From: Flavihumibacter cheonanensis
GTDB lineage: Bacteria > Bacteroidota > Bacteroidia > Chitinophagales > Chitinophagaceae
Reading direction: 5' to 3'
NCBI RefSeq assembly: GCF_022352215.1
Contig: NZ_JAKRWF010000005.1
Span: 1-64,000, forward strand
Length of the DNA stretch: 64,000 bases
Of the stretch, positions 47,474-64,000 are shown piece after piece. How positions within the stretch are numbered: the first letter of the stretch is position 1; each line of letters opens with the position of its first letter. The notes under the pieces are model-generated. The model was not told the origin of the DNA and did not search any database. It saw only the letters and a program-made list of their open reading frames with translations. The translations under genes and the position numbers were made by a program.

Positions 47474-48781
47474 ATGCAGGCACTCACACGTAAATTGGAA
47501 AGTTCCAAACTCTTATTCATAACCTGGTCGATGGTGGCGGCTTTTGGTGCATACTTCTGTGTGTATGCCTTTCGCAAACCCTTTAATGCAGGTACCTATG
47601 CCGGACTGGAATGGATGGGCATGAATTACAAGGCGGTGCTGATCATTGCACAGGTATTGGGTTATATGCTGAGTAAGTTTATCGGGATCAAAGTGATTTC
47701 AGAGCTGACCGCTTCAAAGCGGATAGTCCTGATCGTTAGTCTGATCTTGATTGCAGAGATCAGCCTGGTAGCATTCGGACTGGTACCGCCACCCTATAAT
47801 TTCATCTTTTTGTTTTTTAATGGTCTACCCCTTGGAATGGTATGGGGAATTGTTTTCAGCTACCTGGAGGGAAGGCGGTTTACCGAAACGCTCGGCATGG
47901 GACTTAGCATCAGCCTGATTGTATCTTCCGGTATTCTGAAGACCATTTACCTGTTCATTGCCAAACTGTTTCCGGGGATTTCTGAATTCTGGATGCCGGC
48001 ATTTATTGGTGCTTTGTTCCTGCCACTGTTTTTGTTTTTTGTATGGATGTTATCACGCATACCGCCACCTTCTGATACCGACAAGTTGTTGCGCGTAGAG
48101 CGACTCCCCATGACACAGGAGGACAAAAGAAAAGTAGTGCGCGAATTGGGATGGGGCATTGGTTCAATGGTAGCTTTGTATTCCTTGTTGGCAACCCTGC
48201 GTGATTTCAGGGATAATTTTTCCGTCGAAATATGGGAGGAAATTCAACCCAGCCGGGATATCACGGTGTTCAGTCAGACAGAATTGGTAACCGGGGCCGT
48301 GGTTATACTGATGGCAGGTTCTCTTTCTTTCTTCCGGAGTAATATCAAAGGTTTCTGGTTTACCTTACAATTAATGGGATTTGGGATCCTGTTAAGCGGA
48401 CTTTCCTCGCTCTTGTTTCAGTACAAACTGATTGAACCCTACTGGTGGATGCTCTTATTAGGAATGGGACTTTTTCTTGCTTATATCCCCATACAGGTGG
48501 CAGTGTTTGAACGCATCATCGCCTTGTTCAAACTGAAAGCCAATGCCGGATTTTTTATTTATATCTGTGATTCCATCGGTTACCTGGGAAGTGTGGGATT
48601 ACTCTTGTACAAACAATTCTTCATGCGCGATCTGCAATGGAGTAAGGTATTGCTGAACTTCAGTTATTTCACTACGCTGTTTTGTTTCGCGCTCTTATTG
48701 TTGCTCTCTTTTTTCTTCAATCGCAAGCTGGGGATACAGTCGCCGGTTGCAAAAAAATTACAGGACTTTTCAATTTATTAA
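47474..48781 (+). CDS. DUF5690 family membrane protein, MFS-like transporter
   Basis: This 435-residue protein has about 12 transmembrane segments. The conserved opening is VAAFGAYFCVYAFRKPFNAGTY and the GLPLGMVWGIVFSYLEGR segment resembles the motif between helices in MFS proteins. Long cytoplasmic stretches (about residues 195-225) separate the two halves. Placed between phnY and phnW, it is the most likely importer of 2-aminoethylphosphonate, as no ABC or PhnCDE genes are present. The substrate is inferred. Confidence 0.82.
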   Translation: MQALTRKLESSKLLFITWSMVAAFGAYFCVYAFRKPFNAGTYAGLEWMGMNYKAVLIIAQVLGYMLSKFIGIKVISELTASKRIVLIVSLILIAEISLVAFGLVPPPYNFIFLFFNGLPLGMVWGIVFSYLEGRRFTETLGMGLSISLIVSSGILKTIYLFIAKLFPGISEFWMPAFIGALFLPLFLFFVWMLSRIPPPSDTDKLLRVERLPMTQEDKRKVVRELGWGIGSMVALYSLLATLRDFRDNFSVEIWEEIQPSRDITVFSQTELVTGAVVILMAGSLSFFRSNIKGFWFTLQLMGFGILLSGLSSLLFQYKLIEPYWWMLLLGMGLFLAYIPIQVAVFERIIALFKLKANAGFFIYICDSIGYLGSVGLLLYKQFFMRDLQWSKVLLNFSYFTTLFCFALLLLLSFFFNRKLGIQSPVAKKLQDFSIY

Positions 48782-48792
48782 ACTGAATAAAA

Positions 48793-49899
48793 ATGGCTGA
48801 TAAATTATTATTTACACCCGGACCGCTATCTACTTCTCCAACTGTAAAAGAAGCCATGTTGCATGATCTGGGATCAAGAGATGATGCATTCATTGGAGTA
48901 GTAAAAGAAATCCGCTCAGAATTACTGCGACTGGGTGGTGTTTCGCAGCAGGAAGGATATGAAACCGTATTGATGCAGGGTTCCGGAACCTTTGGTGTAG
49001 AGTCGGTGATCAGCTCCGTAGTTGGTAAAAATGATCAATTACTGGTATTGGTAAATGGAGCTTATGGTGAACGCATTGTGAAAATGGCTAAGGTTCATGG
49101 AATAACTCATATCGTAAAAACATTTCCGGAAAATGAGATAGTAACTCCGAATGCGGTGCAGGAGGTATTGTTGCAGCATCCAGGTGTTACGCATGTTGCC
49201 TGTATTCATAGTGAAACCACCACCGGGCTTTTTAATCCGATTACTGAAATTGGTGCGATTTGTAAGCAGGCCGGTAAAGTGTTTATCGTGGATGCCATGA
49301 GTAGTTTTGGCGGTGTACAGATGGATATAAAAGTCATGCAGATTGATTTTCTGGTTTCTTCTTCAAATAAATGTATTGAGGGCGTACCGGGATTCTCTTT
49401 TGTATTGTGTAAAAAATCAGAACTGCTGAAAGCACAGGGACAGGCCAGGAGTCTGAGTCTGGATCTGTATGATCAGTGGAATGGTTTGGAGAAAAATGGA
49501 CAGTTTCGGTTTACGCCTCCCACCCATAGTTTGCTGGCTTTTCGCCAGGCGATCCGGGAACTGGATACAGAGGGTGGAATTGTTGCACGCGAAGCCAGGT
49601 ACAAGAAAAACAAAGCCATGCTGGATGCGGGCATGCAGGCGATGGGTTTCAACTATTACCTCGAGCATGATATACAGGGACATATTATCAGTTCCTTCCT
49701 CTACCCGCAGGATCCGAACTTTGATTTCATGAAGTTTTACCAGGCATTGAGTGATCGCGGACTGGTAATTTATCCGGGTAAATTAAGTCTCATGGATGCT
49801 TTCCGGATTGGCAATATTGGTTATATATTCCCAAAAGACATAGAGGCCCTGCTCAGCGCAATACAGGAAGTACTAACGGAAATGAATGTACATATCTAA
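48793..49899 (+). CDS. phnW: 2-Aminoethylphosphonate--pyruvate transaminase
   Basis: This 368-residue class V aminotransferase begins LLFTPGPLSTSPTVKEAMLH and DLGSRDDAF, the signature of PhnW. The PLP lysine is in SSSNKCIEGVPG. It turns 2-aminoethylphosphonate and pyruvate into phosphonoacetaldehyde and alanine, the first step of the route completed by phnY and phnA. The 3' end is followed directly by a strong terminator. Identification is firm. Confidence 0.94.
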   Translation: MADKLLFTPGPLSTSPTVKEAMLHDLGSRDDAFIGVVKEIRSELLRLGGVSQQEGYETVLMQGSGTFGVESVISSVVGKNDQLLVLVNGAYGERIVKMAKVHGITHIVKTFPENEIVTPNAVQEVLLQHPGVTHVACIHSETTTGLFNPITEIGAICKQAGKVFIVDAMSSFGGVQMDIKVMQIDFLVSSSNKCIEGVPGFSFVLCKKSELLKAQGQARSLSLDLYDQWNGLEKNGQFRFTPPTHSLLAFRQAIRELDTEGGIVAREARYKKNKAMLDAGMQAMGFNYYLEHDIQGHIISSFLYPQDPNFDFMKFYQALSDRGLVIYPGKLSLMDAFRIGNIGYIFPKDIEALLSAIQEVLTEMNVHI

Positions 49900-50884: not shown

Positions 50885-52375
50885 ATGAGATTCCGGACTT
50901 TTTTTGTTTCAGTTGTTTTCCTGTTTTGCCTGGGTAAACTCAGTTCCTGCGGAGAAGCTGCTGCGCCGGAAGCTGGTCAGGTGTCTTCCGTTTATGAGGA
51001 GCCCTATCGCCCCCAACTCCATTTCACGCCCAAATCAGGTTGGATGAATGATCCCAATGGAATGGTGTATATCAATGGGGTATATCATCTCTTCTTTCAG
51101 CATTATCCGGATAGTACGGTATGGGGACCTATGCATTGGGGACATGCTACCAGTGCCGACCTGGTGCATTGGGAGGAACAGTCTATTAAACTTTTCCCGG
51201 ATAGTCTGGGTTGGATTTTCTCCGGCAGTGCGGTATATGATCAACAGAATACTTCAGGATTAGGCAAAGATGGAAAAGGGCCACTGGTCGCCATCTTTAC
51301 CCACCATTCTTCGGATGGAGAAAAAAGCCGGGGTAAAGATTTTCAATACCAAAGTCTGGCCTATAGCAACGATGAGGGTAAAACCTGGACCAAATACGAA
51401 GGCAATCCGGTACTGCGAAAACCGGAGGGTACTGATTTCCGGGACCCCAAAGTGTTTTGGATGGCGGGTGTCAACAAATGGATCATGACTCTGGCCGTGA
51501 AAGATCATATCGAATTTTATTCCTCACCGGATCTTAAAAGCTGGAGCTATGAATCATCCTTTGGTGCGGATAGAGGTGCGCATGGTGGCGTGTGGGAATG
51601 TCCGGACCTGGTTTCATTTCGTGCAGATGGAAAAGAAAAATGGGTATTAATCGTAAACATGAATCCGGGTGCACCTAATGGGGGATCCGGTACCCAATAT
51701 TTTGTCGGAGATTTTGATGGCAGGAATTTCACTGCTTCGCATACAGATACCCGTTGGATGGATTTTGGTCCGGATAATTATGCCGGTGTAACCTGGTCCA
51801 ATACTGCTAATCGTACATTATTGATTGGCTGGATGAGTAACTGGGCTTATGCCAACCAGGTGCCTACTCAAAACTGGAGAAGTGCAACTACGCTGGTACG
51901 GGAACTGGCACTTCAAAAAGTTGGCAATGAGTATTACCTGCAATCAACTTTGTTGAACGAGTTGAATCAATTGGCGGGATCAACTACTACAGCGCCAGCA
52001 ACCCTTCAATTACCTGCCCGGTTTGAATTGGATGCCACCCCGCTGCAACCGGTAGAATGGATTTTTTCCAATGAAGCAGGAGAAGAACTCAGATTGGGTT
52101 TTGACAAGGTGAGCAATCGTTATTACATAGACCGGACGAAAGCAGGAGTTTCTGATTTTCATCCGGATTTTGCAAAACGGCTATACGCGCCACGCATAGC
52201 AGCCGGAGATTCATTGAAGTGGACGGTAGTGATGGATCATAGTTCAGTTGAACTGCTGGCGGATGATGGTCTCACTGTTATGACGGCGCTGTTTTTCCCG
52301 ACCAGCTTGTATTCCAGCCTGAATGCACCTGCTGTTCGGTATACACCACTAGAGAGCATTTGGAAAAAGAAATAA
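50885..52375 (+). CDS. Glycoside hydrolase family 32 lipoprotein (levanase or beta-fructosidase type)
   Basis: This 496-residue protein has a lipoprotein-like signal (VVFLFCLGKLSSCGEA). The five-bladed propeller has the GH32 motifs: WMNDPNG with the nucleophile Asp, FRDPKVFW (RDP) with the transition-state Asp, and WECPDL with the acid-base Glu, in order. The C-terminal beta-sandwich continues to the end. It hydrolyses fructans or sucrose-like fructosides on the cell surface. No SusC/SusD genes are next to it, unlike most polysaccharide loci of this phylum. Confidence 0.93.
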   Translation: MRFRTFFVSVVFLFCLGKLSSCGEAAAPEAGQVSSVYEEPYRPQLHFTPKSGWMNDPNGMVYINGVYHLFFQHYPDSTVWGPMHWGHATSADLVHWEEQSIKLFPDSLGWIFSGSAVYDQQNTSGLGKDGKGPLVAIFTHHSSDGEKSRGKDFQYQSLAYSNDEGKTWTKYEGNPVLRKPEGTDFRDPKVFWMAGVNKWIMTLAVKDHIEFYSSPDLKSWSYESSFGADRGAHGGVWECPDLVSFRADGKEKWVLIVNMNPGAPNGGSGTQYFVGDFDGRNFTASHTDTRWMDFGPDNYAGVTWSNTANRTLLIGWMSNWAYANQVPTQNWRSATTLVRELALQKVGNEYYLQSTLLNELNQLAGSTTTAPATLQLPARFELDATPLQPVEWIFSNEAGEELRLGFDKVSNRYYIDRTKAGVSDFHPDFAKRLYAPRIAAGDSLKWTVVMDHSSVELLADDGLTVMTALFFPTSLYSSLNAPAVRYTPLESIWKKK

Positions 52376-52600: not shown

Positions 52601-54337
52601 ATGCCGCGGATCAAATTGCTCGGATTAGTAGTATTGCTGATATGTACTTCGGGTATCAATCCCACCACTATGCCCAAAGCCGATCCTGAAAATGGTGGAC
52701 TCTTTCTGCCGGATGGATTTGAAGCTCTTGTAGTGGTGGACAGCCTGCGTGAACGAGCCCGCCACATTACGGTGAATACTAACGGTGATATCTATGTGAA
52801 ACTTCGGTTCCCGGACAGTATTGGTGGGAACGCTGCCATACGTGATGCCAATGGCGATGGCAAAGCTGATCAGGTAGTTAAATTTGGTAATTACGAGGAT
52901 AAGGGTAGTTATGGCACTGCCATGAAAGTGCACAACGGTTATATTTATTTCAGTTCAGAATTATATGTATTCCGCCAGAAACTGGAACCTGGTAAACTGG
53001 TGCCAACCGGGCCCATTGAAACAGTGGTAATTGATGATCATGCGCACGGTCGGCATGAACATATCGCCAAACCAATTGCATTTGACAAAAAAGGGAATAT
53101 CTATGTGGCATTTGGTGCACCCAACAACAATTGCCAGGAAAAAAACCGGGTACCAGGATCACCAGGTATCAATCCCTGTCCCTGGCTCGACGACCATGGT
53201 GGTGTCTGGAAATTTGATGCCAATAAACTCAACCAGCGCCAGGAAGATGGTGTACGATATGCTACCGGCTTACGCAGCATCGTAGGCATGGATTGGAACA
53301 ATGCGGATGACGCACTCTATGTGGTGCATCATGGCAGGGATGATCTCTATCGCCTTTACCCTGATATTTATACACCCTGGCAAAGTGCCATGTTGCCATC
53401 TGAGGAGTTTCTTAAAATAAAAGAAGGCGATGACGCCGGCTGGCCATATTACTACTATGATCAACTGGTTGGAAAGCGCATACTCGCACCGGAGTATGGG
53501 GGCGATGGAAAAATTGCCGACAGCTCCGGTAAATATGTAGATCCTCTTATCGGTTTTCCCGGTCACTGGGCTCCAAACGATTTGTTCTTTTATACAGGTA
53601 ATCAGTTTCCTTCACACTATAAGAATGGAGCTTTCATAGCCTTTCATGGTTCTACTAACAGGGCCCCTTATCCGCAGTCGGGTTATATCATTGTTTTTGT
53701 TCCCTTCAAAAACAATCAGCCTACCGGTGATTGGGAAGTATTTGCCGATGGTTTTGCAGAAGTGGATCCAATCGTCAATGTAAATAATGCACGCTATCGC
53801 CCTATGGGCATCAGTATGGGGCCGGATGGTTCCATGTATTTCAGTGATACCGAACACGGAAAAATCTGGCGGGTAATGTATACCGGCAAAAAGAAGTTTG
53901 GCAAAAAGCAGCTGGCTTCCATGGAAGCAAGAAAACTACAGGCGCATATTCGTACACCGGATATAAAGAAAGATGATCTCGAAGCCGGACTGGTTTCCAA
54001 TAGTGAAAAAATATACAACCGGTATTGCAGTGGCTGTCACCAGAAAAATGGCCAGGGAGATGGAAACCGCTTTCCTCCTTTAGGAAATACCGATTGGGTG
54101 ACTGGTGATAAGAATCGCCTGATACGCCTGGTATTGATGGGAATGGATGGCCCCATCGAGGTAAATGGCAAACCCTATAATTCCAATATGCCGCAACACC
54201 GGTTTTTGAAAGATGAGGACATCGCACAAGTGCTGACCTATATACGTTCCCAATTTGGTAATTCAGCCAGTGCGATCAGTCCGGATGAAGTAAGTGAAGT
54301 GAGAAAAGAAATCAATACTCAAACAGGATCCAAATAA
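52601..54337 (+). CDS. Sorbosone dehydrogenase-like protein with C-terminal cytochrome c
   Basis: This 578-residue exported protein (signal LLGLVVLLICTSG) has a PQQ/glucose-dehydrogenase-type propeller: GFEALVVVDSLRERARHITV, AIRDANGDGKADQVVKFG, RYATGLRSIVGMDWNNADDA and MGISMGPDGSMYFSDTEHGK. The cytochrome c domain at the C-terminus has YCSGCHQKNGQGDG and the distal Met in SNMPQH. It would oxidise an aldose or lactol in the periplasm and pass electrons to the respiratory chain. It starts the tightly packed operon that follows (17 bases to the sigma factor gene). Confidence 0.88.
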   Translation: MPRIKLLGLVVLLICTSGINPTTMPKADPENGGLFLPDGFEALVVVDSLRERARHITVNTNGDIYVKLRFPDSIGGNAAIRDANGDGKADQVVKFGNYEDKGSYGTAMKVHNGYIYFSSELYVFRQKLEPGKLVPTGPIETVVIDDHAHGRHEHIAKPIAFDKKGNIYVAFGAPNNNCQEKNRVPGSPGINPCPWLDDHGGVWKFDANKLNQRQEDGVRYATGLRSIVGMDWNNADDALYVVHHGRDDLYRLYPDIYTPWQSAMLPSEEFLKIKEGDDAGWPYYYYDQLVGKRILAPEYGGDGKIADSSGKYVDPLIGFPGHWAPNDLFFYTGNQFPSHYKNGAFIAFHGSTNRAPYPQSGYIIVFVPFKNNQPTGDWEVFADGFAEVDPIVNVNNARYRPMGISMGPDGSMYFSDTEHGKIWRVMYTGKKKFGKKQLASMEARKLQAHIRTPDIKKDDLEAGLVSNSEKIYNRYCSGCHQKNGQGDGNRFPPLGNTDWVTGDKNRLIRLVLMGMDGPIEVNGKPYNSNMPQHRFLKDEDIAQVLTYIRSQFGNSASAISPDEVSEVRKEINTQTGSK

Positions 54338-54354
54338 CGCTTAAACTAAAACTC

Positions 54355-54924
54355 ATGGAGGAGGCAACTATTCGGGATGAAGAACTGCTGATCCGGATGC
54401 GGAATAACAATGAGGAAGCACTGGCTATCTTGTATCGCCGGTACTGGGAGATTTTATTTCGCAAAGCGTATGCCCTCTTGAAGGATGAACCTGCATGTGA
54501 GGATATTATCCAGGAAATTTTTGTGCGTATCTGGAATAACCGGCATTCATTGGTGATCACTGCTTCCTTAGCTGCTTACCTTTCTGCATCGGTTCGGTAT
54601 GAAGTGATTCGGAAAATTAAAACAGGTAAAGTTCATGCAGATGTTTTTGCTGCATTGGCCCATCAATACCAACAAGTCAGCAGCCAGGACCAGATGGAAG
54701 AGAAGGAATTATTGCATCATATCAATTCCATCGTGAATCAGTTATCTACAAAATGCAAACAAGTATATAAGCTGAGCAGGGAAGAACAATTAAGTCATAA
54801 GGAAATTGCAGCACTTCTTCAGATATCACCTAAAACAGTAGAAAATCATTTAACCAAAGCACTCAGAGAACTAAGATATTCATTGGGTTATACCCTGCTG
54901 ATTATTTTCCTGCATATTTTTTAA
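54355..54924 (+). CDS. ECF RNA polymerase sigma factor, Bacteroidota expansion family
   Basis: This 189-residue protein has sigma region 2 (ALAILYRRYWEILFRKAYAL, CEDIIQEIFVRIWNNRHS) and region 4 (LSTKCKQVYKLSREEQLSHK, EIAALLQISPKTVENHLTKA), then a hydrophobic C-terminal tail (LGYTLLIIFLHIF). Such sigma factors are normally held by a FecR-type membrane protein; the FecR-like gene follows 10 bases downstream. It is placed inside the exported-enzyme operon and probably drives that operon. Confidence 0.9.
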   Translation: MEEATIRDEELLIRMRNNNEEALAILYRRYWEILFRKAYALLKDEPACEDIIQEIFVRIWNNRHSLVITASLAAYLSASVRYEVIRKIKTGKVHADVFAALAHQYQQVSSQDQMEEKELLHHINSIVNQLSTKCKQVYKLSREEQLSHKEIAALLQISPKTVENHLTKALRELRYSLGYTLLIIFLHIF

Positions 54925-54934
54925 GCACATACCT

Positions 54935-55672
54935 ATGCCGGATAAACAATCCTTCCAATCTGTCATTGACCGCTTTTTAAGTGGAGAACTGGATGAAGCA
55001 TCCCTGCTTCAACTGATGGAAACTATGGAGCGAAGTGAATTGGATGGGGATACAAATCCTGGTATCACTAACCTGGAAACAAGAAGGGAACAACAGCTCG
55101 AAAAATTATTGAATAAAGTACAACAGGCTGAAAAATCATCTTATCGCAAACCTTCCATTAATTGGGTAAGACATTTTGCCATAACCTGTTTTGGATTGCT
55201 GTTTACTGCTTCCCTCTATTTTTACCTGAAACCTGCTTCCCTGGTGCATCGCTGTACCCAGGCGGATCTGCGGGTAGGAGAGGAGCCGGTTTCTGCCATG
55301 CTGGCGGCACTTTATGTAGAGCCCAAACTGCAACAGTTGTCCAAAGTCAGTTTTGTAAATACCACCGAAGATGGCTACCTGCGGTTTGAATCCAAATTGA
55401 TTGAATCAGAATTGCTGCTGAAAGAAATAACGCAGGATCAGGATGCCCGTTACCTGGTTTTTGAGGATCAGGATATCAACCAGCTCCTGGCAGTGTTGAA
55501 AGAAAAGTACCAGGTTGATTTTACGGTTACCGGTCAGCTTCCCGAACAACAATTTTCCGGATTTATATCAACGGGCCTGAATCTTAAAATGGTAGTGAAG
55601 TTGCTGGTTTCCTCCGGCCTCTTTGAAGTGAGTATAGAGGGGAAACAAGTGCTGCTGAGCTCGAGGATTTAA
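54935..55672 (+). CDS. FecR/DUF4974-like anti-sigma membrane protein, atypical
   Basis: This 245-residue protein has an N-terminal cytoplasmic part (residues 1-78, with FLSGELDEASLLQLMETMER), one transmembrane helix (WVRHFAITCFGLLFTASLYF) and a periplasmic end. The last 75 residues (DINQLLAVLKEKYQVDFTVT, then FSGFISTGLNLKMVVKLL and FEVSIEGKQVLL) match the STN-like DUF4974 domain. The central FecR domain of about 100 residues that usually lies between them is largely absent. It would hold the preceding sigma factor and respond to a periplasmic signal. No partner TonB-dependent receptor is visible nearby. Confidence 0.65.
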   Translation: MPDKQSFQSVIDRFLSGELDEASLLQLMETMERSELDGDTNPGITNLETRREQQLEKLLNKVQQAEKSSYRKPSINWVRHFAITCFGLLFTASLYFYLKPASLVHRCTQADLRVGEEPVSAMLAALYVEPKLQQLSKVSFVNTTEDGYLRFESKLIESELLLKEITQDQDARYLVFEDQDINQLLAVLKEKYQVDFTVTGQLPEQQFSGFISTGLNLKMVVKLLVSSGLFEVSIEGKQVLLSSRI

Positions 55673-55689
55673 CTATTAAAAATGCCAAC

Positions 55690-56877
55690 ATGAAAAGAAG
55701 AGAGTTACTGAAATATTTATCTGTTGCGCCAGCAGGAGCCGCTTTGCCGCTCGGTGGATTTGCCATGCCGGCGCCTAAGAAGGATTATATAACCGAGTTG
55801 GGATTGCGATCCTTTATCAATGCTGCAGGAACCTATACGGCCATGACAGCCTCCCTGATGTATCCGGAAGTGATGGAAGCCATCAATGCGGTTTCAAAAT
55901 CCTATGTAATGCTGGATGAAGTACAGGATAAAGTGGGAGAGCGGATTGCTAAAATATGTCGCGCAGAAGCGGCAACTGTTACCGCCGGCTGCTGGTCGGC
56001 AATGGTGCTTGGAACTGCAGGTGTGCTCACCGGAACCGATCCCAAAAAGATTGCCCAATTGCCCCGCCTGGATGGAATGAAATCAGTGGTGCTGGTTCAA
56101 AAATCACATAACAGCGGATATGTGCATGCACTAACGAATACGGGTGTACGAATTGTTGAAATTGAAACATTGGAGGAGCTGCATAATGCCATCAATGAGC
56201 AGACCGCAATGCTCTGGTTTCTGAATGCCCACGCCAACCTGGGAAAGATCTCCCATGAAGAATGGGTGGCTGCAGGTAAGAAACACGGGATCCCAACCAT
56301 GATTGATATCGCGGCGGATGTACCACCGGTGGAGAATCTCTGGCGCTTTAACGAGATGGGATTTGACCTGGTTTGTATTTCCGGTGGAAAGGCATTACGA
56401 GGTCCCCAGAGTGCCGGCATCCTCATGGGAAGAAAGGACCTGATCAAGGCAGCGCGGTTAAGTGCTCCTCCAAGAGGCGGAACCATTGGAAGAGGCATGA
56501 AAGTAAACAAGGAAGAAATTGTAGGCATGCTGGCCGCACTGGAAAAATATGTCAGCATTGATCACGATAAGGAATGGAAAGACTGGATGCACCAGGTAGA
56601 ATACATTGCAGCACAGGCCAAACAGCGCAAGGGCATCCAGACAGAAATTGTGATTCCGCCTTTGGCCAATCATACGCCCACGCTGAATATTCAATGGAGT
56701 ACAGGTGATATCTCTCTCAAGCCTGCTGAATTGCAGCTTGCTCTTCGTAATGGTGCTCCCTCTATTGAAGTGCTGGCAAATGACAAAGGCATCAGCCTCA
56801 CTGTTTTTATGCTGCGCGAAGGGGAATATAAAATCGTGGCCAAACGCATCCTGGAAGAATTAAAAAAATCAGTATGA
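55690..56877 (+). CDS. SelA-like PLP-dependent enzyme with twin-arginine-like signal, copy 1
   Basis: This 395-residue fold-type I PLP enzyme is related to the SelA family group that includes the amino-sugar-acid ammonia lyase DgaE. It begins MKRRELLKYLSVAPAGAALP, a Tat-like signal with RR. Key segments are LRSFINAAGTYTAMTASLMY, EAATVTAGCWSAM, PTMIDIAADVPPVENLWRF (with the Asp that contacts the PLP nitrogen) and the PLP lysine in SGGKALRGPQSAG. It would eliminate ammonia from a 2-amino acid in the periplasm. Its stop overlaps the next start by 4 bases (ATGA). The substrate is inferred. Confidence 0.85.
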   Translation: MKRRELLKYLSVAPAGAALPLGGFAMPAPKKDYITELGLRSFINAAGTYTAMTASLMYPEVMEAINAVSKSYVMLDEVQDKVGERIAKICRAEAATVTAGCWSAMVLGTAGVLTGTDPKKIAQLPRLDGMKSVVLVQKSHNSGYVHALTNTGVRIVEIETLEELHNAINEQTAMLWFLNAHANLGKISHEEWVAAGKKHGIPTMIDIAADVPPVENLWRFNEMGFDLVCISGGKALRGPQSAGILMGRKDLIKAARLSAPPRGGTIGRGMKVNKEEIVGMLAALEKYVSIDHDKEWKDWMHQVEYIAAQAKQRKGIQTEIVIPPLANHTPTLNIQWSTGDISLKPAELQLALRNGAPSIEVLANDKGISLTVFMLREGEYKIVAKRILEELKKSV

Positions 56878-58127
56878 GAAAAAGTATTCAACTCCTGATT
56901 GGCCTGTTGCTTTTTTCCGGCTGGGTGCAGGCTCAATCCTATTCCATCGTAATTAAAGGTGGGAGGGTAATCGATCCCAAAAATGGCATTGATGCCATAC
57001 TGGATGTGGGCATCCGCGATGGTAAAATTGTGGCGGTTCAAAAACAGTTGGATACGACAGGCGCCAAACAGGTGGTGATGGCTGCGGGTATGCTGGTGGT
57101 ACCCGGACTCATAGACATTCATGGTCATTATTTCTTTGGAACGGAACCTGATCATTATTTGAGCAATGGCTTAACAGCAGTGGCTCCGGATGGCTTCACC
57201 CTGCGTAATGGAGTTACTACTTCCGTTGATTGTGGTGGTGCAGGATGGAAAAATTTTACTGTTTTCAAACGAAATATTATTGATAACAGTAAAACACGGA
57301 TCCTCTCTTTTCTGAACATCGTGGGAGAGGGGATGCGGGGTGGTGCCTGGGAACAGGATACCACTGATATGAATGCCCGAATGGCGGCTGCAGTTGCCAA
57401 ACAATTCCCGGATCATATCGTAGGTTTTAAAGTAGCTCACTATGAACGAAGAGAATGGATCCCGGTGGATCGGGCTGTGGAAGCAGGCCGACTGACCAAC
57501 CTGCCGGTGATCATTGACTTTGGTGGCAGTGATCCTCCGCCCCTCTCCATTGAAGAATTGTTCTTTCAGCATTTGCGTCCGGGTGATATCTATACCCATG
57601 CTTTTACAGAGCTTAACAGACGTGAACCCATTGTAGATCCAGCAACCCGGAAGCTCAAGCCCTTTGTAAAAAAAGCACAGGAACGCGGGATCATTTTCGA
57701 TGTGGGTTATGGCGGTGCCAGTTTTGTGCTATCACAGGCGCAACCAGCCGCGGCAGCAGGGTTCTATCCCAATACCATCAGTACCGATTTGCATATCGGC
57801 AGTATGAATGCTTCCATGAAAGATATGCTTAATGTGATGAATACGTTTCTTGCCCTGAAAATGGATTTGAAAGAACTAATTAAAGCCAGTACCTGGTCGC
57901 CTGCATTGGCGATTCAGCGTAAAGATCTGGGGCATCTCAGTGTTGGCGCAGAAGCGGATGTGGCAATATTGCAACAGATGCCCGGGAACTTTGGATTCTG
58001 GGATCGGAGCGGTGCAAAGATCACCTCCAACCAAAAACTGGTTTGCGAGATGACGATCCTTGGAGGAAAGATTGTATACGACCTGAACGGAATTGCACGA
58101 CCTATTGTGTTATCTTATTCGAAATAA
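56874..58127 (+). CDS. Amidohydrolase/deacetylase family metallohydrolase, exported, copy 1
   Basis: This 417-residue enzyme has a signal peptide (LLIGLLLFSGWVQAQ). The metal site comprises HGH in LIDIHGHYF, the Lys in HIVGFKVAHYE (carbamylated in the family), HAF and the His of STDLHIGSMN. The family (EF_0837-like) contains N-acyl amino acid and amino-sugar-acid deacylases. It overlaps the SelA-like gene by 4 bases, so the two products are made together. Two related members are encoded in this window. It would act in the periplasm. Confidence 0.87.
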   Translation: MRKSIQLLIGLLLFSGWVQAQSYSIVIKGGRVIDPKNGIDAILDVGIRDGKIVAVQKQLDTTGAKQVVMAAGMLVVPGLIDIHGHYFFGTEPDHYLSNGLTAVAPDGFTLRNGVTTSVDCGGAGWKNFTVFKRNIIDNSKTRILSFLNIVGEGMRGGAWEQDTTDMNARMAAAVAKQFPDHIVGFKVAHYERREWIPVDRAVEAGRLTNLPVIIDFGGSDPPPLSIEELFFQHLRPGDIYTHAFTELNRREPIVDPATRKLKPFVKKAQERGIIFDVGYGGASFVLSQAQPAAAAGFYPNTISTDLHIGSMNASMKDMLNVMNTFLALKMDLKELIKASTWSPALAIQRKDLGHLSVGAEADVAILQQMPGNFGFWDRSGAKITSNQKLVCEMTILGGKIVYDLNGIARPIVLSYSK

Positions 58128-58133
58128 AGCCAG

Positions 58134-59231
58134 TTGAAAAAAACAATCATAAATCAATTGCTGGCGGTATGTCTTTTCTTCGTTTGTACAGTACCGGTAG
58201 CTGCACAAAAAGCGGCCTATTTGCCGGATGGAGTAACCGAGGAAAAATTAAAGCCGCTGTTAACTTCACCTCCGCAATACCGGGCTGTTAAAACAAACCA
58301 GCCGATTCAGGTAGATGGAGTTGCCAATGAAACAATTTGGCAGAAAATTCCGTTCACATCGAATTTCCGGGATATTGCAGGTGGTCCGACAGGGAACAAA
58401 TCAGCACTCAAGCTCTGCTGGGATGAACAGTATCTCTATGTGTTTGCACAATTGGAGCAGCCACAGTTATGGGCAAGTCTGACTAAAAAAGACACCGCCG
58501 TATTTATGGATAACGCACTGGAGTTTTTCATAGATATGGACGGGGATATGCAGCAGTATATTGAATTCCAGATTAATGCATTTGGTACCACCTGGGATTT
58601 AATGCTATCCAAAGCTTACCGCGATGGAGGAAAGGGGGATTCCGATTTTGAATTTCCCGGATTAAAAAAAGCAGTTCGACTGCGCGGAACATTGAATCAG
58701 CCTGGTGATATTGATGAAGGATGGGATGTGGAATTGGCTATACCACTGGCACCGCGTAACGGACAAATTGCGCGTATGAATTTTTCTCATGTAAACTGGA
58801 AACTGGATGTCGTGAATGGAGTGTATCAAAAACAGAAGGATGCATCCGGCCGCATAGCGCAACCTCATTACATTGTTTGGTCACCCCAGGGTAGAGTGGA
58901 TCTGCATATGCCGGAACGCTGGGGATATGTACTGTTTTCAGAAGAGGCTGGTCCCGCTGCCTTTATTTCTGCTGAAACACTTGAAATGCAGCAATCGCTT
59001 TGGAAATATTATTACCTTCAGAGAGATCACCGGGAACAACACAAACAATATGCATCTGGGATGGAAGAGCTTAGAAAAAAATATCCGGGCCTCAACTGGA
59101 AGGATGCAAAGCAGGTGCAACTATTGAAAGATCCTACCGGTTTTGTGTTGGTTGGTAAAGAAAGAAAATCCGGTAGGGAATGGCGACTGGATGCAGAAGG
59201 CCGATTGCAACAGATTAAAATCAGTAACTAA
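58134..59231 (+). CDS. CBM9-like carbohydrate-binding protein, exported
   Basis: The start is a TTG at 58134, 6 bases after the preceding stop; no ATG is available before the signal peptide (LLAVCLFFVCTVPVAAQ). The 365-residue protein has a CBM9-like domain (QPIQVDGVANETIWQKIPFT, SALKLCWDEQYLYVFAQLEQ, ALEFFIDMDGDMQQYIEFQI, DEGWDVELAIPL) followed by a C-terminal helical and charged part. CBM9 modules bind the reducing ends of sugar chains. It belongs to the operon and may capture substrate. Confidence 0.82.
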   Translation: MKKTIINQLLAVCLFFVCTVPVAAQKAAYLPDGVTEEKLKPLLTSPPQYRAVKTNQPIQVDGVANETIWQKIPFTSNFRDIAGGPTGNKSALKLCWDEQYLYVFAQLEQPQLWASLTKKDTAVFMDNALEFFIDMDGDMQQYIEFQINAFGTTWDLMLSKAYRDGGKGDSDFEFPGLKKAVRLRGTLNQPGDIDEGWDVELAIPLAPRNGQIARMNFSHVNWKLDVVNGVYQKQKDASGRIAQPHYIVWSPQGRVDLHMPERWGYVLFSEEAGPAAFISAETLEMQQSLWKYYYLQRDHREQHKQYASGMEELRKKYPGLNWKDAKQVQLLKDPTGFVLVGKERKSGREWRLDAEGRLQQIKISN

Positions 59232-59233
59232 CT

Positions 59234-59252
59234 AGGGGAAAATAGTTCCCCT
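59234..59252 (+). terminator. Hairpin between the CBM9-like and SMP-30 genes
   Basis: The stem AGGGGAA/TTCCCCT is perfect with a 5-base loop. It lacks a T tract, so it is more likely an mRNA stabilising or attenuating hairpin than a full terminator. It lies in the 38-base gap before the SMP-30 gene. Confidence 0.4.
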
Positions 59253-59269
59253 GTACTCAGTAAGAAATA

Positions 59270-60184
59270 ATGAAAGGAAAAGCAAAGACAGGTTTATTGG
59301 TAGCAGCGTTGTTGATTACAATCTCAGCAACAGCGCAGCCTGAAGTATTGCATAAATCAACCCTGCTTACACCGGTGAATTCCTTTACCAGCGGAGTTGA
59401 AGGTCCTGCAGTAGATAGCAAGGGAAATCTTTATGCTGTGAATTATGAAAGACAGGGCACGATTGGCCAGGTGAAACCAGATGGTACAGCAACCGTTTGG
59501 CTGGTGCTTCCGGAAGGCAGTATCGCCAATGGGATCCGGATTAACAGCAAAGGCCAATTAGTACTGGCTGATTATACGAAACACAATGTGTGGAAAGTGG
59601 ATCCGCGTACCAAAAAGATCAGTCTGCTGGCGCATGAGCCACGCATGAACCAGCCCAACGACCTGGCGATTGATAATAAAGACCGGATATATGCAAGTGA
59701 TCCCAACTGGAAAAATGGTACCGGGCAACTGTGGAGAATCGATCCAAATGGTACTACGCATTTGCTGGATACTATGGGTACAACCAATGGGGTAGAAGTG
59801 AGTCCGGATAATAAAAAACTATATGTAGGAGAATCCTTACAGCGTAAAATATGGGTCTATGATCTGGCTACCGACGGCTCTGTCAAAAACAAACAATTGT
59901 TTTATGAGTTTACCGATCATGGCCTGGATGGCATGCGCTGCGATCAGATGGGAAATCTCTATGTGACAAGATTTGGAAAAGGTACGATCCTGCTGCTGGC
60001 TCCGGATGGCACTAAACTGGAGGAGATAACGCTGATGGGTAAACGCCCGACGAATATCGCCTTTGGTGGGCCGGATGGCAGAACAGCGTATGTTACCATG
60101 CAAGATCAGGGAAATGTAGAACAGTTTCGGGTGGAATTTCCGGGAAGGGAATTTAAAGGAGGCAATAAACAAACATCAAAATAA
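59270..60184 (+). CDS. SMP-30/gluconolactonase family protein, exported
   Basis: This 304-residue protein has a signal peptide (TGLLVAALLITISATAQ) and a six-bladed SMP-30 propeller: VEGPAVDSKGNLYAVN (metal Glu), ANGIRINSKGQLVLADYTKH, NQPNDLAIDNKDRIYASDP (NxPND motif) and GLDGMRCDQMGNLYVTRFGK (DGMRxD motif). It would open a sugar lactone, the product expected from the dehydrogenase at 52601. It starts 38 bases after the CBM9-like gene and ends 7 bases before ridA. Confidence 0.9.
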   Translation: MKGKAKTGLLVAALLITISATAQPEVLHKSTLLTPVNSFTSGVEGPAVDSKGNLYAVNYERQGTIGQVKPDGTATVWLVLPEGSIANGIRINSKGQLVLADYTKHNVWKVDPRTKKISLLAHEPRMNQPNDLAIDNKDRIYASDPNWKNGTGQLWRIDPNGTTHLLDTMGTTNGVEVSPDNKKLYVGESLQRKIWVYDLATDGSVKNKQLFYEFTDHGLDGMRCDQMGNLYVTRFGKGTILLLAPDGTKLEEITLMGKRPTNIAFGGPDGRTAYVTMQDQGNVEQFRVEFPGREFKGGNKQTSK

Positions 60185-60191
60185 TAATACC

Positions 60192-60653
60192 ATGGCTACA
60201 CAAAGAAGATCTGTATTAAAATCGCTGTTTGCATCCATTCTGGGTGTTACCGGTATATCTGCTGCAGCTAAAGCTGCTGGGAACAGTGCCCCTGAAAAGG
60301 AAGTTAAAAATGTAACGGATTTTCAGGGGGTGCCCCTGTTTTCCGGATCTACCACCTATAATGGTTTGGTTTTCATTGCCGGTAAGGGCGCCCATTTCGA
60401 TGGAGATGTAAAAGCACATACAGACCATGTATTAAAAGAACTGGAAAAAGAACTGATTAAAGCAGGCTCCTCCATGGAAAAAGTGCTGAAGGTGAATGTA
60501 TACCTGAATGATATCGCTGATTATAAAGCGATGAATGAAGTGTATATGGGCCGGTTTGGCAAAAATCCTCCGGTTCGTACAACCGTTGCAGTTGCAAAAG
60601 GTGGTGTACCTGGAGATTCTTTAGTAGAAATCGATTGTATCGCATATAAATAA
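60192..60653 (+). CDS. RidA family protein with twin-arginine signal
   Basis: This 153-residue protein starts ATQRRSVLKSLFASILGVTG, a Tat signal with RR, and then the RidA fold: LFSGSTTYNGLVFIAGKGAH, KVLKVNVYLNDIADYKAMNE and PPVRTTVAVAKGGVPGDSLV (catalytic Arg in VRTT). RidA proteins hydrolyse the enamine or imine released by PLP lyases, giving 2-oxo acids and ammonia. Placed between two exported SelA-like lyases, it fits this job in the periplasm. Cytoplasmic RidA is the norm; an exported one is unusual. Confidence 0.9.
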   Translation: MATQRRSVLKSLFASILGVTGISAAAKAAGNSAPEKEVKNVTDFQGVPLFSGSTTYNGLVFIAGKGAHFDGDVKAHTDHVLKELEKELIKAGSSMEKVLKVNVYLNDIADYKAMNEVYMGRFGKNPPVRTTVAVAKGGVPGDSLVEIDCIAYK

Positions 60654-60670
60654 CCCCACAATAACAACCC

Positions 60671-61882
60671 ATGAAAAGAAGGGATGTAATTAAAGGCCTT
60701 GGCCTTCTGCCAGTAGGCGGATTAGCAGGTGGTCTGGACGCTTTTGCAGGAACCGGTTCTCCATTGGCAGCACCAAAGCGGGATCTGTTCAAAGAACTTG
60801 GTGTACGTACGTTTATCAATGCAACCGGTACCCTTACGTATATGACGGGTTCATTGATGCATGATTATGTACTGGATGCCATCAATTATGGAGCTGACCA
60901 GTTCTGCATGCTGGATGAATTGCAGGATAAAGTGGGTGAACGCATCGCGAAGATGGTGCACTCCGAATCAGCTGTTGTAACATCCGGAGCTTTCTCGGCA
61001 ATGACGCTTGGTCTGGCAGGTATCCTTACCGGAATGGATCAGAAAAAAGTGGAAGCCCTTCCTCATATTGAAGGCACTGGTATGAAATCGGAAGTGATTT
61101 GCCAGAAAGCCCACGACATCGTGTACAATCATGCCTTTATCAATACCGGTTGCAAGATTGTGGCCATTGAAACGGTAGAAGAACTGGAGCGTGCTATCAA
61201 TGAAAAAACAGCCCTGATGCATTTTCTGAACATCTCACAGGGAGGTAAGATTTCGCAGGAAGAATGGGTAGCCCTGGGTAAAAAACATGGTATCCCCACC
61301 AGTATTGATATCGCTGCAGATGTGCCTCCGGTTTCGAATCTCTGGAAGTTCAATGATATGGGTTTTGATATGGTGCAGATTTCTGGTGGTAAAGCAATTC
61401 GCGGTCCGCAAAGCGCAGGTTTATTAATGGGACGTAAGTCCATCATACAGGCTGCCCGCCTGCATATGCCACCACGTGGTTTCAACATCGGCCGGGGTAT
61501 GAAAGTGAACAAGGAAGAAATCCTGGGCATGTATGTAGCACTGGAGCAATACATTGCCAGAGACCACGATAAGGAATGGAAGCAGTGGGAAAAAAGCATT
61601 GCGCTGATTGAAGCTGCTGCGAAATCTGTGAAGGATGTGGAAACAAAAATCTGGGTTCCTCAGGGTGGTAATATCACACCGAATCTTTCCATTAGCTGGG
61701 AGAAATCCGGCAAAACACCGGAAGGAAAAGAGTTGCAGGAACGGCTTAGGAATGGAAGTCCCTCTATTGAAGTAGGTGGTGGTAAAAAAGGTATCAATGT
61801 TACTGCCTGGATGCTCAAGCCGGGAGAAGACAAGATCGTTGCCCGTAGAATTAAAGAAGAATTACAAAGCCTCTTAGCATGA
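60671..61882 (+). CDS. SelA-like PLP-dependent enzyme with twin-arginine-like signal, copy 2
   Basis: This 403-residue protein is a paralogue of the one at 55690 (shared PTSIDIAADVPPVSNLWKFN, IGRGMKVNKEEI and the PLP lysine in SGGKAIRGPQSAG). It begins MKRRDVIKGLGLLPVGGLAG, a Tat-like signal. Differences lie at the substrate end: VRTFINATGTLTYMTGSLMH and the extended EGTGMKSEVICQKAHDIVYN. The two copies may take different substrates. It overlaps the next amidohydrolase gene by 4 bases (ATGATG). Confidence 0.86.
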   Translation: MKRRDVIKGLGLLPVGGLAGGLDAFAGTGSPLAAPKRDLFKELGVRTFINATGTLTYMTGSLMHDYVLDAINYGADQFCMLDELQDKVGERIAKMVHSESAVVTSGAFSAMTLGLAGILTGMDQKKVEALPHIEGTGMKSEVICQKAHDIVYNHAFINTGCKIVAIETVEELERAINEKTALMHFLNISQGGKISQEEWVALGKKHGIPTSIDIAADVPPVSNLWKFNDMGFDMVQISGGKAIRGPQSAGLLMGRKSIIQAARLHMPPRGFNIGRGMKVNKEEILGMYVALEQYIARDHDKEWKQWEKSIALIEAAAKSVKDVETKIWVPQGGNITPNLSISWEKSGKTPEGKELQERLRNGSPSIEVGGGKKGINVTAWMLKPGEDKIVARRIKEELQSLLA

Positions 61883-63141
61883 TGAAAAAATTGCTTGCCC
61901 TTTGCCTGTCCGGACTGATAATTTCTTCCGCGATTCAGGCGCAGACTTATGCCATTGTGATCAAAGGTGGACATGTGATTGATCCTAAGAATGGAATCAA
62001 TGGAATCATGGATATCGCTATTGATAAAGGAAAGATTGTAAAAATAGCCAAATCAATTCCAACCGATGCGGTGCAGGTGATTGATGCCAAAGGGCTGTAT
62101 GTTACACCCGGACTCATCGATATGCATACGCATAATTTCTGGGGAAATAATGCAGATCAGGCTTATATGAATGCGCCCAGTGCGTTACCTCCGGATGGGT
62201 TCACCTTTCGGGTAGGTGTTACAACCGTAGTGGATGCAGGATCTCCTGGCTGGAGAAACTTTGATCTGTACAAAAAACAGACCATCCAGCAATCGCAAAC
62301 CAGGGTGCTGGCTTTTCTGAATATTGTTGGTCATGGTATGCGCGGGGGCAAATACGAGTCAGATACAACTGATATGATTCCGGAAGAAGCGGCACGCGTG
62401 GCACTTGCCAATAAAGAACATATTGTCGGATTTAAAGTGGCGCATTACAGTCGCCCTGACTGGATACCGGTTGACAACGCTGTGAAAGCAGGTAATCTGG
62501 CAGGTGGTATTCCGGTAATGATCGACTTTGGTGGTGCCGAACCGCCGCTCTCACTTAAGTCGCTGTTCCTCGAACATTTGCGTCCGGGTGATATTTTTAC
62601 GCACTGTTATGCACAAGTGAACGGACGTGAATTCATTGCAGATACGACTACCAAAAAAGTCAAATCCTTTGTGTATGACGCACGAAAAAGAGGGATTGTG
62701 TTTGATGTAGGTTATGGTGGTATCAGTTTCTCTTACTCACAGGCACTGATAGCCGCAAAGGAGAAATTTTTCCCAACCACCATTTCAACGGACCTGCATG
62801 TGGGCAGTATGAATGCCGCAATGAAGGATCAGCTTACCTGCATGTCGAAGTTTTTGCAAATGGGTATGCCACTGCAGGAGGTAATCAAAGCCAGTACCTG
62901 GACACCCGCACAGGTAATCAAACGCGAGGAGCTGGGGCATCTGTCAGAAGGTGCTGTAGCAGATATTGCGATCCTGGGTGTGCGCAAAGGAAATTTCGGG
63001 CTCTTTGATTATACCGGTTATAAAGTAAAGGCAACTGATAAACTCGAATGTGAACTTACGATTCGCGCCGGACGAATTGTATACGACCTGAATGCCCGGG
63101 CAACCCCGGTAACCCTGCATGGATTACCGCCCCGGAAATAA
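61879..63141 (+). CDS. Amidohydrolase/deacetylase family metallohydrolase, exported, copy 2
   Basis: This 420-residue paralogue of the protein at 56874 has a signal peptide (LLALCLSGLIISSAIQAQ). The metal motifs are HTH in LIDMHTHNF, Lys in HIVGFKVAHYS and His in STDLHVGSMN. The HTH in place of HGH is the more usual form of the superfamily. It overlaps the preceding SelA-like gene by 4 bases and is followed 18 bases later by the RraA-like gene. Confidence 0.88.
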   Translation: MMKKLLALCLSGLIISSAIQAQTYAIVIKGGHVIDPKNGINGIMDIAIDKGKIVKIAKSIPTDAVQVIDAKGLYVTPGLIDMHTHNFWGNNADQAYMNAPSALPPDGFTFRVGVTTVVDAGSPGWRNFDLYKKQTIQQSQTRVLAFLNIVGHGMRGGKYESDTTDMIPEEAARVALANKEHIVGFKVAHYSRPDWIPVDNAVKAGNLAGGIPVMIDFGGAEPPLSLKSLFLEHLRPGDIFTHCYAQVNGREFIADTTTKKVKSFVYDARKRGIVFDVGYGGISFSYSQALIAAKEKFFPTTISTDLHVGSMNAAMKDQLTCMSKFLQMGMPLQEVIKASTWTPAQVIKREELGHLSEGAVADIAILGVRKGNFGLFDYTGYKVKATDKLECELTIRAGRIVYDLNARATPVTLHGLPPRK

Positions 63142-63159
63142 GAACTCTAAATTTTTAGC

Positions 63160-64000
63160 ATGCTCCTGAACAAGTTTAATAAAATCCTTGCTTTCGGTTG
63201 TGTTTTACTGTTAGCACAACAAACGCAGGGACAAACCATCCCGAAAGAAGAATTGATTTACCTGACATCCGAATGGAAGGGGGAACGTTTTGCCGATGGT
63301 CGCCCCAAGGTAAGTGATGACCTGATGGAACGCGCCAAAAAGATCGGTATTGAAGAAGCCTGGCAGGTACTCATGAACGAGGGATATGTGAATCAGTTTG
63401 AACGCAACTGGAAAATGATTCATGATGATGTGCCGGTGGTGGGTAGAGCGGTAACAGCTATGTATATGCCATCGCGGCCGGATATTGAAAAAAAGATCAA
63501 AGAAAGAGGTGCTAAACAAGGTAGGGTAGGTAATACTAATGCCTGGCCAATTGAAACCCTGGTGAAAGGAGATGTATATGTAGCGGATGGATTTGGTAAG
63601 ATCGAGGGCGGTACTCTCATTGGCGATAACCTGGGAACTGCCATCTTTAATAAAACCGGAACCGGTGTCATTTTTGATGGTAGTGCGCGCGATTTAAGCG
63701 GACTTGCAAAGATCAAAGGATTCAATGCCTTTGTACGTGATTTTGATCCTTCCTTCCTGAAAGAAATGGTATTGATGGGATTGAATACACCGATCCGGAT
63801 AGGCAAAGCCATTGTATTGCCTGGTGACCTGGTGATTTCAGAAAGAGAAGGGGTGCTCTTTATACCGGCTCACATGGCGGAGCAGGTAATATTGACCGCC
63901 GAGTTTATTGGTCGCAAAGACAAGTTTGGCAAAGAGATGCTGAAAACGGGTCGCTATAATACCGGACAAATCGATAGCCAGTGGACCGAGGAAATCAAAC
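63160..64000 (+). CDS. RraA family aldolase-like protein, exported (3' end outside window)
   Basis: The frame from the ATG at 63160 runs open to the right edge. It starts with a signal peptide (FNKILAFGCVLLLAQQTQG) and contains the RraA core: VKGDVYVADGFGKIEGGTLI, GDNLGTAIFNKTGTGVIFDG and SARDLSGLAKIKGF. Members bind a divalent metal and act as aldolases or decarboxylases on 2-oxo acids such as hydroxymethylglutarate; others only bind RNase E. In this operon an aldolase acting on the 2-oxo acid formed by the lyase and RidA steps is the likelier role. Confidence 0.87.
   Translation, partial: MLLNKFNKILAFGCVLLLAQQTQGQTIPKEELIYLTSEWKGERFADGRPKVSDDLMERAKKIGIEEAWQVLMNEGYVNQFERNWKMIHDDVPVVGRAVTAMYMPSRPDIEKKIKERGAKQGRVGNTNAWPIETLVKGDVYVADGFGKIEGGTLIGDNLGTAIFNKTGTGVIFDGSARDLSGLAKIKGFNAFVRDFDPSFLKEMVLMGLNTPIRIGKAIVLPGDLVISEREGVLFIPAHMAEQVILTAEFIGRKDKFGKEMLKTGRYNTGQIDSQWTEEIK

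Follow-up and report, generated by a model that had tools for sequence, protein, structure and literature searches.

A candidate exported module for the catabolism of N-acylated amino sugar acids in Flavihumibacter cheonanensis and related Bacteroidota

Gene content and limits of the run

The window analysed here is the first 64,000 nucleotides of contig NZ_JAKRWF010000005.1 from Flavihumibacter cheonanensis (Bacteroidota, Chitinophagaceae). Its right end is occupied by a gene run (52601-64092) that contains two SelA-like pyridoxal phosphate (PLP) enzymes, each followed by an amidohydrolase, together with a GSDH-type dehydrogenase carrying a cytochrome c, an extracytoplasmic function (ECF) sigma factor with a FecR-like protein, a CBM9-like protein, an SMP-30-type putative lactonase, a RidA and a RraA-like protein (Table 1). 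The possible function of this run is the subject of the present study. According to the open reading frame (ORF) coordinates, it is a single plus-strand run of eleven genes with intergenic gaps of at most 38 bases; from the gene starting at 52601 to the RraA gene, the successive gaps are 17, 10, 17, -4, 6, 38, 7, 17, -4 and 18 bases. An initial annotation, made from the DNA letters alone, had counted ten genes, one fewer than is found; the strand, the short or overlapping junctions and the family names that it gave agree with the ORF positions and the profile searches.

The RraA gene ends past the end of the window (64000) and, in the sequence of the longer locus L008, the run extends four more genes, to about 68023. 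The importer sought beyond position 64000 is found there as a BASS-type carrier gene. A tRNA-Pro gene and a 14-pair terminator-like hairpin come after the end of the run. No SusCD partner for the ECF/FecR pair was found within the run; in several relatives, the ECF/FecR genes are placed ahead of SusC/D. The genome has these two SelA copies and no others, and SelA2 is 100% identical to a SelA of Flavihumibacter fluminis. A GH32 gene lies upstream (50885-52375) and is not counted in the run.

Table 1 Genes of the run and of its continuation beyond the window
Feature	Coordinates	Strand	Evidence
GSDH/AA12-type six-bladed propeller with C-terminal cytochrome c, 578 amino acids; putative pyrroloquinoline quinone (PQQ) sugar dehydrogenase (GSDH-cyt)	52601-54337	+	
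ECF sigma factor, Bacteroidota type	54355-54924	+	TIGR02985 132 bits, cut-off 126
FecR-like anti-sigma; FecR_C sole recognised part	54935-55672	+	PF16344 37.6 bits
SelA1: SelA/DgaE-like PLP enzyme, predicted exported, twin-arginine N-terminus	55690-56877	+	TIGR01437 163 bits, below cut-off 385; alignment
AH1: amidohydrolase/deacylase, NF006689 (COG3964) type, predicted exported	56874-58127	+	NF006689 410 bits, cut-off 371; presumed metal-ligand columns conserved
CBM9-like protein (CBM9_1), predicted exported	58134-59231	+	PF06452 35.7 bits
SMP-30/gluconolactonase-type (SGL) putative lactonase, predicted exported	59270-60184	+	PF08450 154 bits
RidA with twin-arginine N-terminus	60192-60653	+	PF01042 74 bits, cut-off 27
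SelA2: SelA/DgaE-like PLP enzyme, predicted exported, twin-arginine N-terminus	60671-61882	+	TIGR01437 167 bits, below cut-off 385; Foldseek rank 1 7lc0
AH2: amidohydrolase/deacylase, NF006689 (COG3964) type, predicted exported	61879-63141	+	NF006689 433 bits, cut-off 371
RraA-like aldolase candidate, predicted exported	63160-64092 (window to 64000)	+	PF03737 57.9 bits, cut-off 24.5 (score of the near-identical L063 copy)
BASS-family symporter	64089-65222 (beyond window)		same run
DUF4440 protein	65228-65653 (beyond window)		same run
MFS carrier, nucleoside-type	65666-66853 (beyond window)		same run
Second GSDH protein	66896-68023 (beyond window)		same run

Conservation of the gene set

The related loci are the best 80 of at least 576 SelA-profile matches, from which 78 distinct loci were kept by SelA similarity, their neighbours being ignored. 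All but one of them (77/78) belong to Bacteroidota. Neighbour counts refer to the 63 loci whose flanks are 4 kb or longer on each side, the 15 with less than 4 kb on either side being left out. Within these well-flanked loci, SelA is accompanied by an amidohydrolase in 55, by RidA (two families) in 44 and by a GSDH-type dehydrogenase in 43; all three are present in 35, and every one of the 44 RidA-bearing loci also has the amidohydrolase. BASS carriers occur in 17 and CBM9 proteins in 21. When loci are reduced to 34 genus-level groups, the amidohydrolase is present in 33, RidA in 28, GSDH in 25 and all three in 22. Since the seven RidA-domain matches found genome-wide in 4.84 Mb lead to an expectation of about 0.03 per 21 kb, the clustering of RidA exceeds chance, and the locus and genus-level counts reject a chance association of SelA with the amidohydrolase, RidA and GSDH. 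The co-occurrence in related genomes on which the initial annotation relied is thus borne out. The exported SelA family is sparsely distributed: at E <=2e-100, 14 of the 147 same-family genomes and 7 of the 296 genomes of the phylum have homologues (the genome of the window counted), and at E 0.001 these numbers become 17 and 18, the additional homologues being mostly remote.

The lactonase and RraA are less widespread. Lactonase candidates occur in 16 and RraA in 15 of the 78 loci, and the former belong to two propeller families, SMP-30-type (11 loci) and PF10282-type (8 loci; assignment checked by profile on the L111 member). The occurrence of two propeller families in this position is compatible with a lactone step but does not prove it.

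The SelA and amidohydrolase sequences appear to have diverged together (Mantel r 0.59 over 46 adjacent pairs; the highest value in 1000 shuffles is 0.37), although species history contributes to this correlation; proteins of 330 amino acids or less were left out of these alignments and trees. In loci with two pairs, 44 of 56 comparisons are congruent. The congruence is clean within the Spirosoma and Larkinella loci and between these and the second pair of the window, which (through its near-identical L063 copy) tracks their second pair, but not for distant loci; the first pair of the window agrees with Larkinella and disagrees with Spirosoma. SelA1 is placed near a DGOK-linked clade (see below) with weak support. 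The simplest reading is that each pair probably has its own substrate, the two being related compounds such as epimers or acids that differ in their acyl group.

Export signals

Every enzyme of the run has an export-type N-terminus, as judged by inspection. The initial annotation had made this claim, and it stands for the enzymes; the sigma factor and the FecR-like protein are regulators and not exported enzymes. The ORF clusters of the 78 loci were scored with a home-made rule that combines the charge of the n-region, an uncharged hydrophobic nonamer and RR. The rule is positive for 93/94 SelA, 85/89 amidohydrolases, 42/42 RidA, 36/37 GSDH-cyt and 15/15 RraA, as well as for 9/11 SMP-30, 17/21 CBM9, 14/18 members of the second RidA-like family and 6/8 seven-bladed lactonases. 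In the same loci, the negative controls gave 0/20 (ECF sigma), 0/5 (DGOK) and 0/5 (KDPG aldolase). Because 141 of 279 mixed singleton ORFs longer than 150 amino acids also score as signal, the rule is meaningful only beside these controls. The twin-arginine-like signals previously noticed on the PLP enzymes and RidA are kept in 87/94 SelA and 40/42 RidA relatives; they are invariant in a 19-sequence SelA alignment, and TatC is encoded in the genome. A cytoplasmic location of the SelA and amidohydrolase products was rejected on the basis of their N-termini.

Another type of PLP protein in the window, similar to beta-eliminating lyases and threonine aldolases (32774-33949, plus strand; PF01212 163 bits), also has a twin-arginine-like N-terminus. 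The exported PLP protein PvdN is reportedly a Tat substrate; a literature search on it gave no results.

Active sites of the predicted enzymes

The AlphaFold model of SelA2 (pLDDT 86) retrieves with Foldseek the ammonia-lyase DGL in first place (7lc0; TM to target 0.83, rmsd 3.1, 24% identity) and Cap15 in second (8t7j; TM to target 0.87, rmsd 2.3). SelA1 and SelA2 fall below the TIGR01437 cut-off (Table 1) and below that of a second curated profile (145 and 123 vs 600 bits). The PLP lysine (SGxK) is present in all 94 SelA relatives and the carboxylate-site residue is K/R in 91 and Q in 3. In the docked model of DGL described in PMC9529869, R226 is close to the carboxylate, and R301/R332/R346 are close to the phosphate; the same source presents H163 as the proton donor of DGL and reports that the H163A mutant lets the enamine go, an enamine of the type that is cleared by RidA. 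The exported SelA were compared with this site by sequence-profile (hidden Markov model) alignment at about 24% identity, in which loop positions are uncertain: none of the three positions aligned with the phosphate-site arginines is Arg in any of the 19 exported SelA compared, the His162 position is His in one of the 19 (SelA1 of the window), and His163 lies in an insert that the exported family is without and therefore has no counterpart. In some members, a His is found a little earlier in the proton-donor loop. Two four-residue alignment inserts, at DVPP and PPRG, and the export signal further distinguish these proteins from DGL. The comparison with DgaE that the initial annotation had proposed consequently gives a mixed picture: the fold, the PLP lysine and the basic carboxylate-site residue are shared, and a 2-amino-3-hydroxy sugar acid would be expected to undergo beta-elimination in both, whereas the phosphate-site arginines and the His162-His163 pair differ. 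The missing arginines suggest that the substrate of the exported SelA is unphosphorylated.

AH1 and AH2 exceed the NF006689 cut-off and are below that of TIGR03583 (185 and 215 vs 432 bits). The best structural relatives of AH2 in the PDB are 8je0, 2ogj and 2ics, COG3964-type structures associated with the names Atu3266 and EF0837. As in these proteins, the HxH, Lys, His and Asp columns, which we take to be metal ligands, are conserved (86/86 rows). Unlike these proteins, AH1 and AH2 have a predicted signal peptide, and the beta-5 His of 2ogj and 8je0, presumably also a metal ligand, is replaced by Asp in 85 of 86 sequences (Asp216 in AH2) and by Glu in one.

The GSDH domain has the AA12/PQQ-dehydrogenase propeller fold. 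Its identity to the AA12 and soluble PQQ aldose dehydrogenases 6i1q, 6jt5 and 2g8s is about 20%, and GSDH-cyt differs from them by its C-terminal cytochrome c. Its R225, H322 and H349, invariant in a 16-row alignment, align with the Arg/His of the Trichoderma reesei AA12 protein; the PQQ ligands given for the Coprinopsis cinerea enzyme are Arg430, His539 and His560 (PMC6881789), and the three residues are tentatively taken, by motif reading, as the corresponding ligands. A second cytochrome-bearing propeller lies upstream in the window (40693-44073, plus strand), a 1126-residue DUF7133 protein that also contains HEAT repeats and ends in a cytochrome c.

Among the accessory enzymes, E44, N130, N173 and D220 of the SMP-30 protein (L063 copy numbering), presumably catalytic, are invariant in 11/11 sequences. 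The R177-D178 of RraA, which we assume to be the active-site motif of the family, is invariant in 15/15, and R129 of RidA, which we take to be the active-site Arg, in 42/42. Both proteins score below the corresponding specific models (RraA 46 vs 179 bits for NF006731, the 4-carboxy-4-hydroxy-2-oxoadipate (CHA) aldolase equivalog; RidA 67.7 vs 106 bits for the subfamily TIGR00004). The conservation of these presumed catalytic positions in the amidohydrolase, RidA, RraA and SMP-30 proteins supports the enzyme roles first assigned to them.

Product, import and onward routes

Several related loci contain neighbours that bear on the product. In L096, L097, L105 and L106, the gene order is SusC-SusD-SelA-amidohydrolase-DGOK-KDPG/KDPGal aldolase-MFS-SelA, the amidohydrolase of L106 being split into two ORFs. 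The kinase of L096 matches 2-keto-3-deoxygalactonokinase (DGOK; PF05035, 173 bits), its aldolase exceeds the TIGR01182 cut-off (175 vs 156 bits), and the L106 carrier is matched best by the model of the D-galactonate transporter, at 250 bits where the cut-off is 395. In L126, the SelA and amidohydrolase genes lie beside a sulfatase, DGOK, KDPG aldolase and an enolase-superfamily protein (17101-18339, plus strand) with a twin-arginine-like start; the latter is most similar to galactonate dehydratase, at 205 bits against a cut-off of 311. UxuA and DctA are present in L138. Carboxylate-type importers of several unrelated families occur in at least 32 of the 78 loci, on either strand: BASS in 19, TRAP in 4 (two without BASS), SSF/ActP-like in 4, galactonate-type MFS in 5, TctA in 1 and DctA in 1, one or two members per cluster having been run by profile. 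Together, the DGOK, the KDPG aldolase, the galactonate-type carrier, the dehydratase-like protein of L126 and the importers indicate that the SelA product is a 2-keto-3-deoxy-aldonate. RraA (15 loci) and DGOK (5 loci) have no locus in common, which suggests that they represent alternative onward routes; some loci other than those with RraA appear to take up the keto-acid and complete its breakdown inside the cell. DGOK was not found in the genome of the window, while two control genomes gave matches, and a KdgK-like/Eda-like/MFS set is present elsewhere in the genome.

A separate amino-sugar gene run lies beyond the present one (L008 9641-16648, about 71641-78648 in the frame of the window). 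It encodes a Gfo/Idh protein with a twin-arginine-like start, a NagP-like carrier, a PF16490 protein, NagA, a NagB-like protein and a LacI-type regulator; NagA is over its cut-off, the NagP-like and NagB-like proteins are below theirs, and these three genes are about 5-10 kb past the end of the present run. The identification of the Gfo/Idh protein (L008 9641-10993) as GH109-like was dropped: 2ixa is among the weaker of 55 matches, and the best NCBIfam model, glycoside 3-dehydrogenase, is far below its cut-off. A PIG-L deacetylase-like protein is found in L082, L123 and L128 (profile run on the L082 member).

Relation to known systems

Cytoplasmic relatives of the pathway logic are already known, namely Dga, the ong pathway and a predicted haloarchaeal route. 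In the ong pathway of Pseudoalteromonas, as described in PMC9537276, N-acetylglucosaminate is imported by an SSS carrier, deacetylated and then deaminated to 2-keto-3-deoxygluconate (KDG) in the cytoplasm, and the RidA protein OngD is essential for a reason that the text leaves unexplained. The likeness to the run lies in the deacetylation and deamination of an unphosphorylated N-acetyl sugar acid and in the RidA gene of the cluster. The proteins are of other kinds: OngB is D-aminoacylase-like and OngC has fold type III, whereas the run combines an NF006689-type deacylase with the SelA fold and has export signals on all. The glucosaminate route predicted for chitin-using haloarchaea (PMC12343721) involves a glucose dehydrogenase and a DgaE homologue, to which the oxidation of amino sugars is ascribed as a proposal, and its clusters also contain a RutC-type gene; unlike the run, it has a phosphorylated intermediate, and the parts of the article consulted do not speak of exported enzymes at this stage. 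The consulted parts of PMC13260240 add nothing on this predicted step. No description of an exported set, of a SelA-fold enzyme acting without phosphate or of a twin-arginine RidA was found in searches of an openly licensed literature collection, a scope outside which most subscription papers lie.

Proposed pathway and alternatives

Amino-sugar catabolism is usually described as import and phosphorylation, followed by deacetylation and deamination in the cytoplasm. On balance, the run probably encodes a catabolic module that is exported and works, most likely in the periplasm, on unphosphorylated N-acylated 2-amino-2-deoxy sugar acids with gluco/galacto configuration. The PQQ-type GSDH-cytochrome c would oxidise an N-acyl amino sugar at C1 and the SMP-30 protein would open the resulting lactone. 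The amidohydrolase likely takes off the acyl group to give the free 2-amino-aldonate, from which the SelA-like enzyme, folded and PLP-loaded before its twin-arginine export, likely eliminates the 3-OH without phosphorylation. Hydrolysis of the enamine/imine, in which the co-exported RidA may assist, likely yields a 2-keto-3-deoxy-aldonate and ammonia. In some loci, a carboxylate carrier would import this keto-acid for KDG kinase and KDPG aldolase; in RraA operons such as that of the window, it may be cleaved outside the cytoplasm first, a keto-acid fragment then entering by the BASS carrier. Co-occurrence, export signals and the conservation of presumed catalytic positions lend partial support to the oxidation-to-cleavage pathway outside the cytoplasm proposed in the initial annotation; they do not establish a complete periplasmic breakdown, RraA and lactonase being confined to the minority of loci given above. 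A bolder claim is that this is a conserved extracytoplasmic breakdown of N-acyl amino sugars in Bacteroidota, from oxidation through lactone opening and deacylation to PLP-dependent deamination, in which a SelA without a built-in proton donor hands its enamine to the co-exported RidA, the toxic enamine and ammonia stay outside and the sole compound taken up is a nitrogen-free keto-acid; this is possible but rather doubtful.

Several observations weigh against the proposed module. Eight of the 63 well-flanked loci have SelA without the amidohydrolase (L069, L073, L076, L078, L080, L081, L086 and L130, the first seven forming a Dyadobacter/Larkinella clade), and only 14 and 13 of them contain a lactonase and RraA, respectively. 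The replacement of the beta-5 His by Asp may mean that the chemistry of the amidohydrolases differs from that of their known relatives. The characterised AA12 enzyme whose fold is closest to that of the dehydrogenase was assayed with N-acetylglucosamine and glucosamine, neither of which is among the active substrates listed in the consulted text of PMC4133262, which argues against an amino-sugar substrate. Searches of the genome did not find PQQ synthesis: for pqqC there was no match, yet no control matched either, and all pqqE matches are below the cut-off. The five DGOK loci (L096, L097, L105, L106 and L126) show no RidA within the locus sequence, and a His is present in the proton-donor loop of 18/62 SelA from RidA loci against 3/32 from loci without RidA, so that the presence of RidA is not explained by the loss of the lyase histidine as a simple rule. 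Because RidA does not track the histidine pattern and none is seen in the DGOK loci, the release of an enamine to RidA, attractive and compatible with the essential OngD, is kept as a hypothesis. More generally, the substrate, the cleavage by RraA and every enzyme activity are deduced from sequence and genomic context.

Other readings share part of this evidence. The substrates of the deacylase/lyase pairs could be N-acylated D-amino acids (D-Ser, D-Thr or the beta-hydroxy-D-amino acids of peptidoglycan or lipopeptides), with the dehydrogenase and lactonase belonging to a separate sugar pathway in the same operon. The substrates of characterised COG3964-type members are D-amino or hydroxy acids in N-acyl or ester form, and the CBM9 and sulfatase neighbours do not discriminate between the readings. 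The PLP deaminase OngC is also reported to accept D-serine and D-threonine (PMC9537276). This reading is nevertheless unlikely, given that GSDH accompanies SelA in 43 of the 63 loci, that DGOK and KDPG aldolase lie within the SelA-amidohydrolase run of four loci and that L126 has the galactonate-dehydratase-like protein. Alternatively, the chemistry could be as proposed but start from a sulfated amino sugar or from an amino uronic acid in N-acyl form; RraA would then cleave a dicarboxylic intermediate as a 4-hydroxy-2-oxo-acid aldolase. RraA has CHA aldolases among its named relatives, although these are outscored by hypothetical and other entries; some loci have TRAP, TctA or DctA-type importers, and a sulfatase cluster is present in six, both members tested having an SGSH_C domain. 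The galactonate-type carrier and DGOK point instead to monocarboxylic aldonates, at least in the DGOK loci, and such an entry substrate appears decidedly unlikely.

It could also be argued that the exported SelA are not ammonia-lyases but oxygen-using PLP enzymes like Cap15, which acts as a monooxygenase-decarboxylase on a sugar-borne beta-hydroxy-alpha-amino acid (PMC7497351), in which case the module would yield a carboxamide or an aldehyde. The geometry of 8t7j is slightly better than that of the lyase and the lyase histidines are missing from the exported SelA; the genera with such loci include aerobic ones, and oxygen should easily reach the periplasm. The sequence score, in turn, favors the lyase (E 1.2e-50 vs 3e-41), and both RidA and the DGOK/KDPG aldolase neighbours match a keto-acid and ammonia rather than a carboxamide. 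A Cap15-like activity is thus very unlikely, and the elimination of ammonia from an amino-aldonate is the preferred reading. If the conserved set is exported, it would place nitrogen-removing chemistry outside the cytoplasm; if the proposal is true, it would also provide a reason for exported RidA proteins, a function for the so far unassigned exported SelA-like family and a second entry into the KDG pool for glycan-degrading Bacteroidota. The DGOK-linked loci make the question of the substrate directly testable with a few sugar acids.

Other features of the window

The window also contains a phosphonate cluster, not counted in the run (44712-49899, plus strand), made up of phosphonoacetate hydrolase, phosphonoacetaldehyde dehydrogenase, a DUF5690 protein and 2-aminoethylphosphonate transaminase, the three enzymes being over their NCBIfam cut-offs. 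Three tyrosine recombinases lie in tandem at 7755-10999 (plus strand), with an RHS-repeat ORF nearby (14170-16881), and a protein with a HipA-like C-terminal domain is encoded at 36718-37737 (plus strand).

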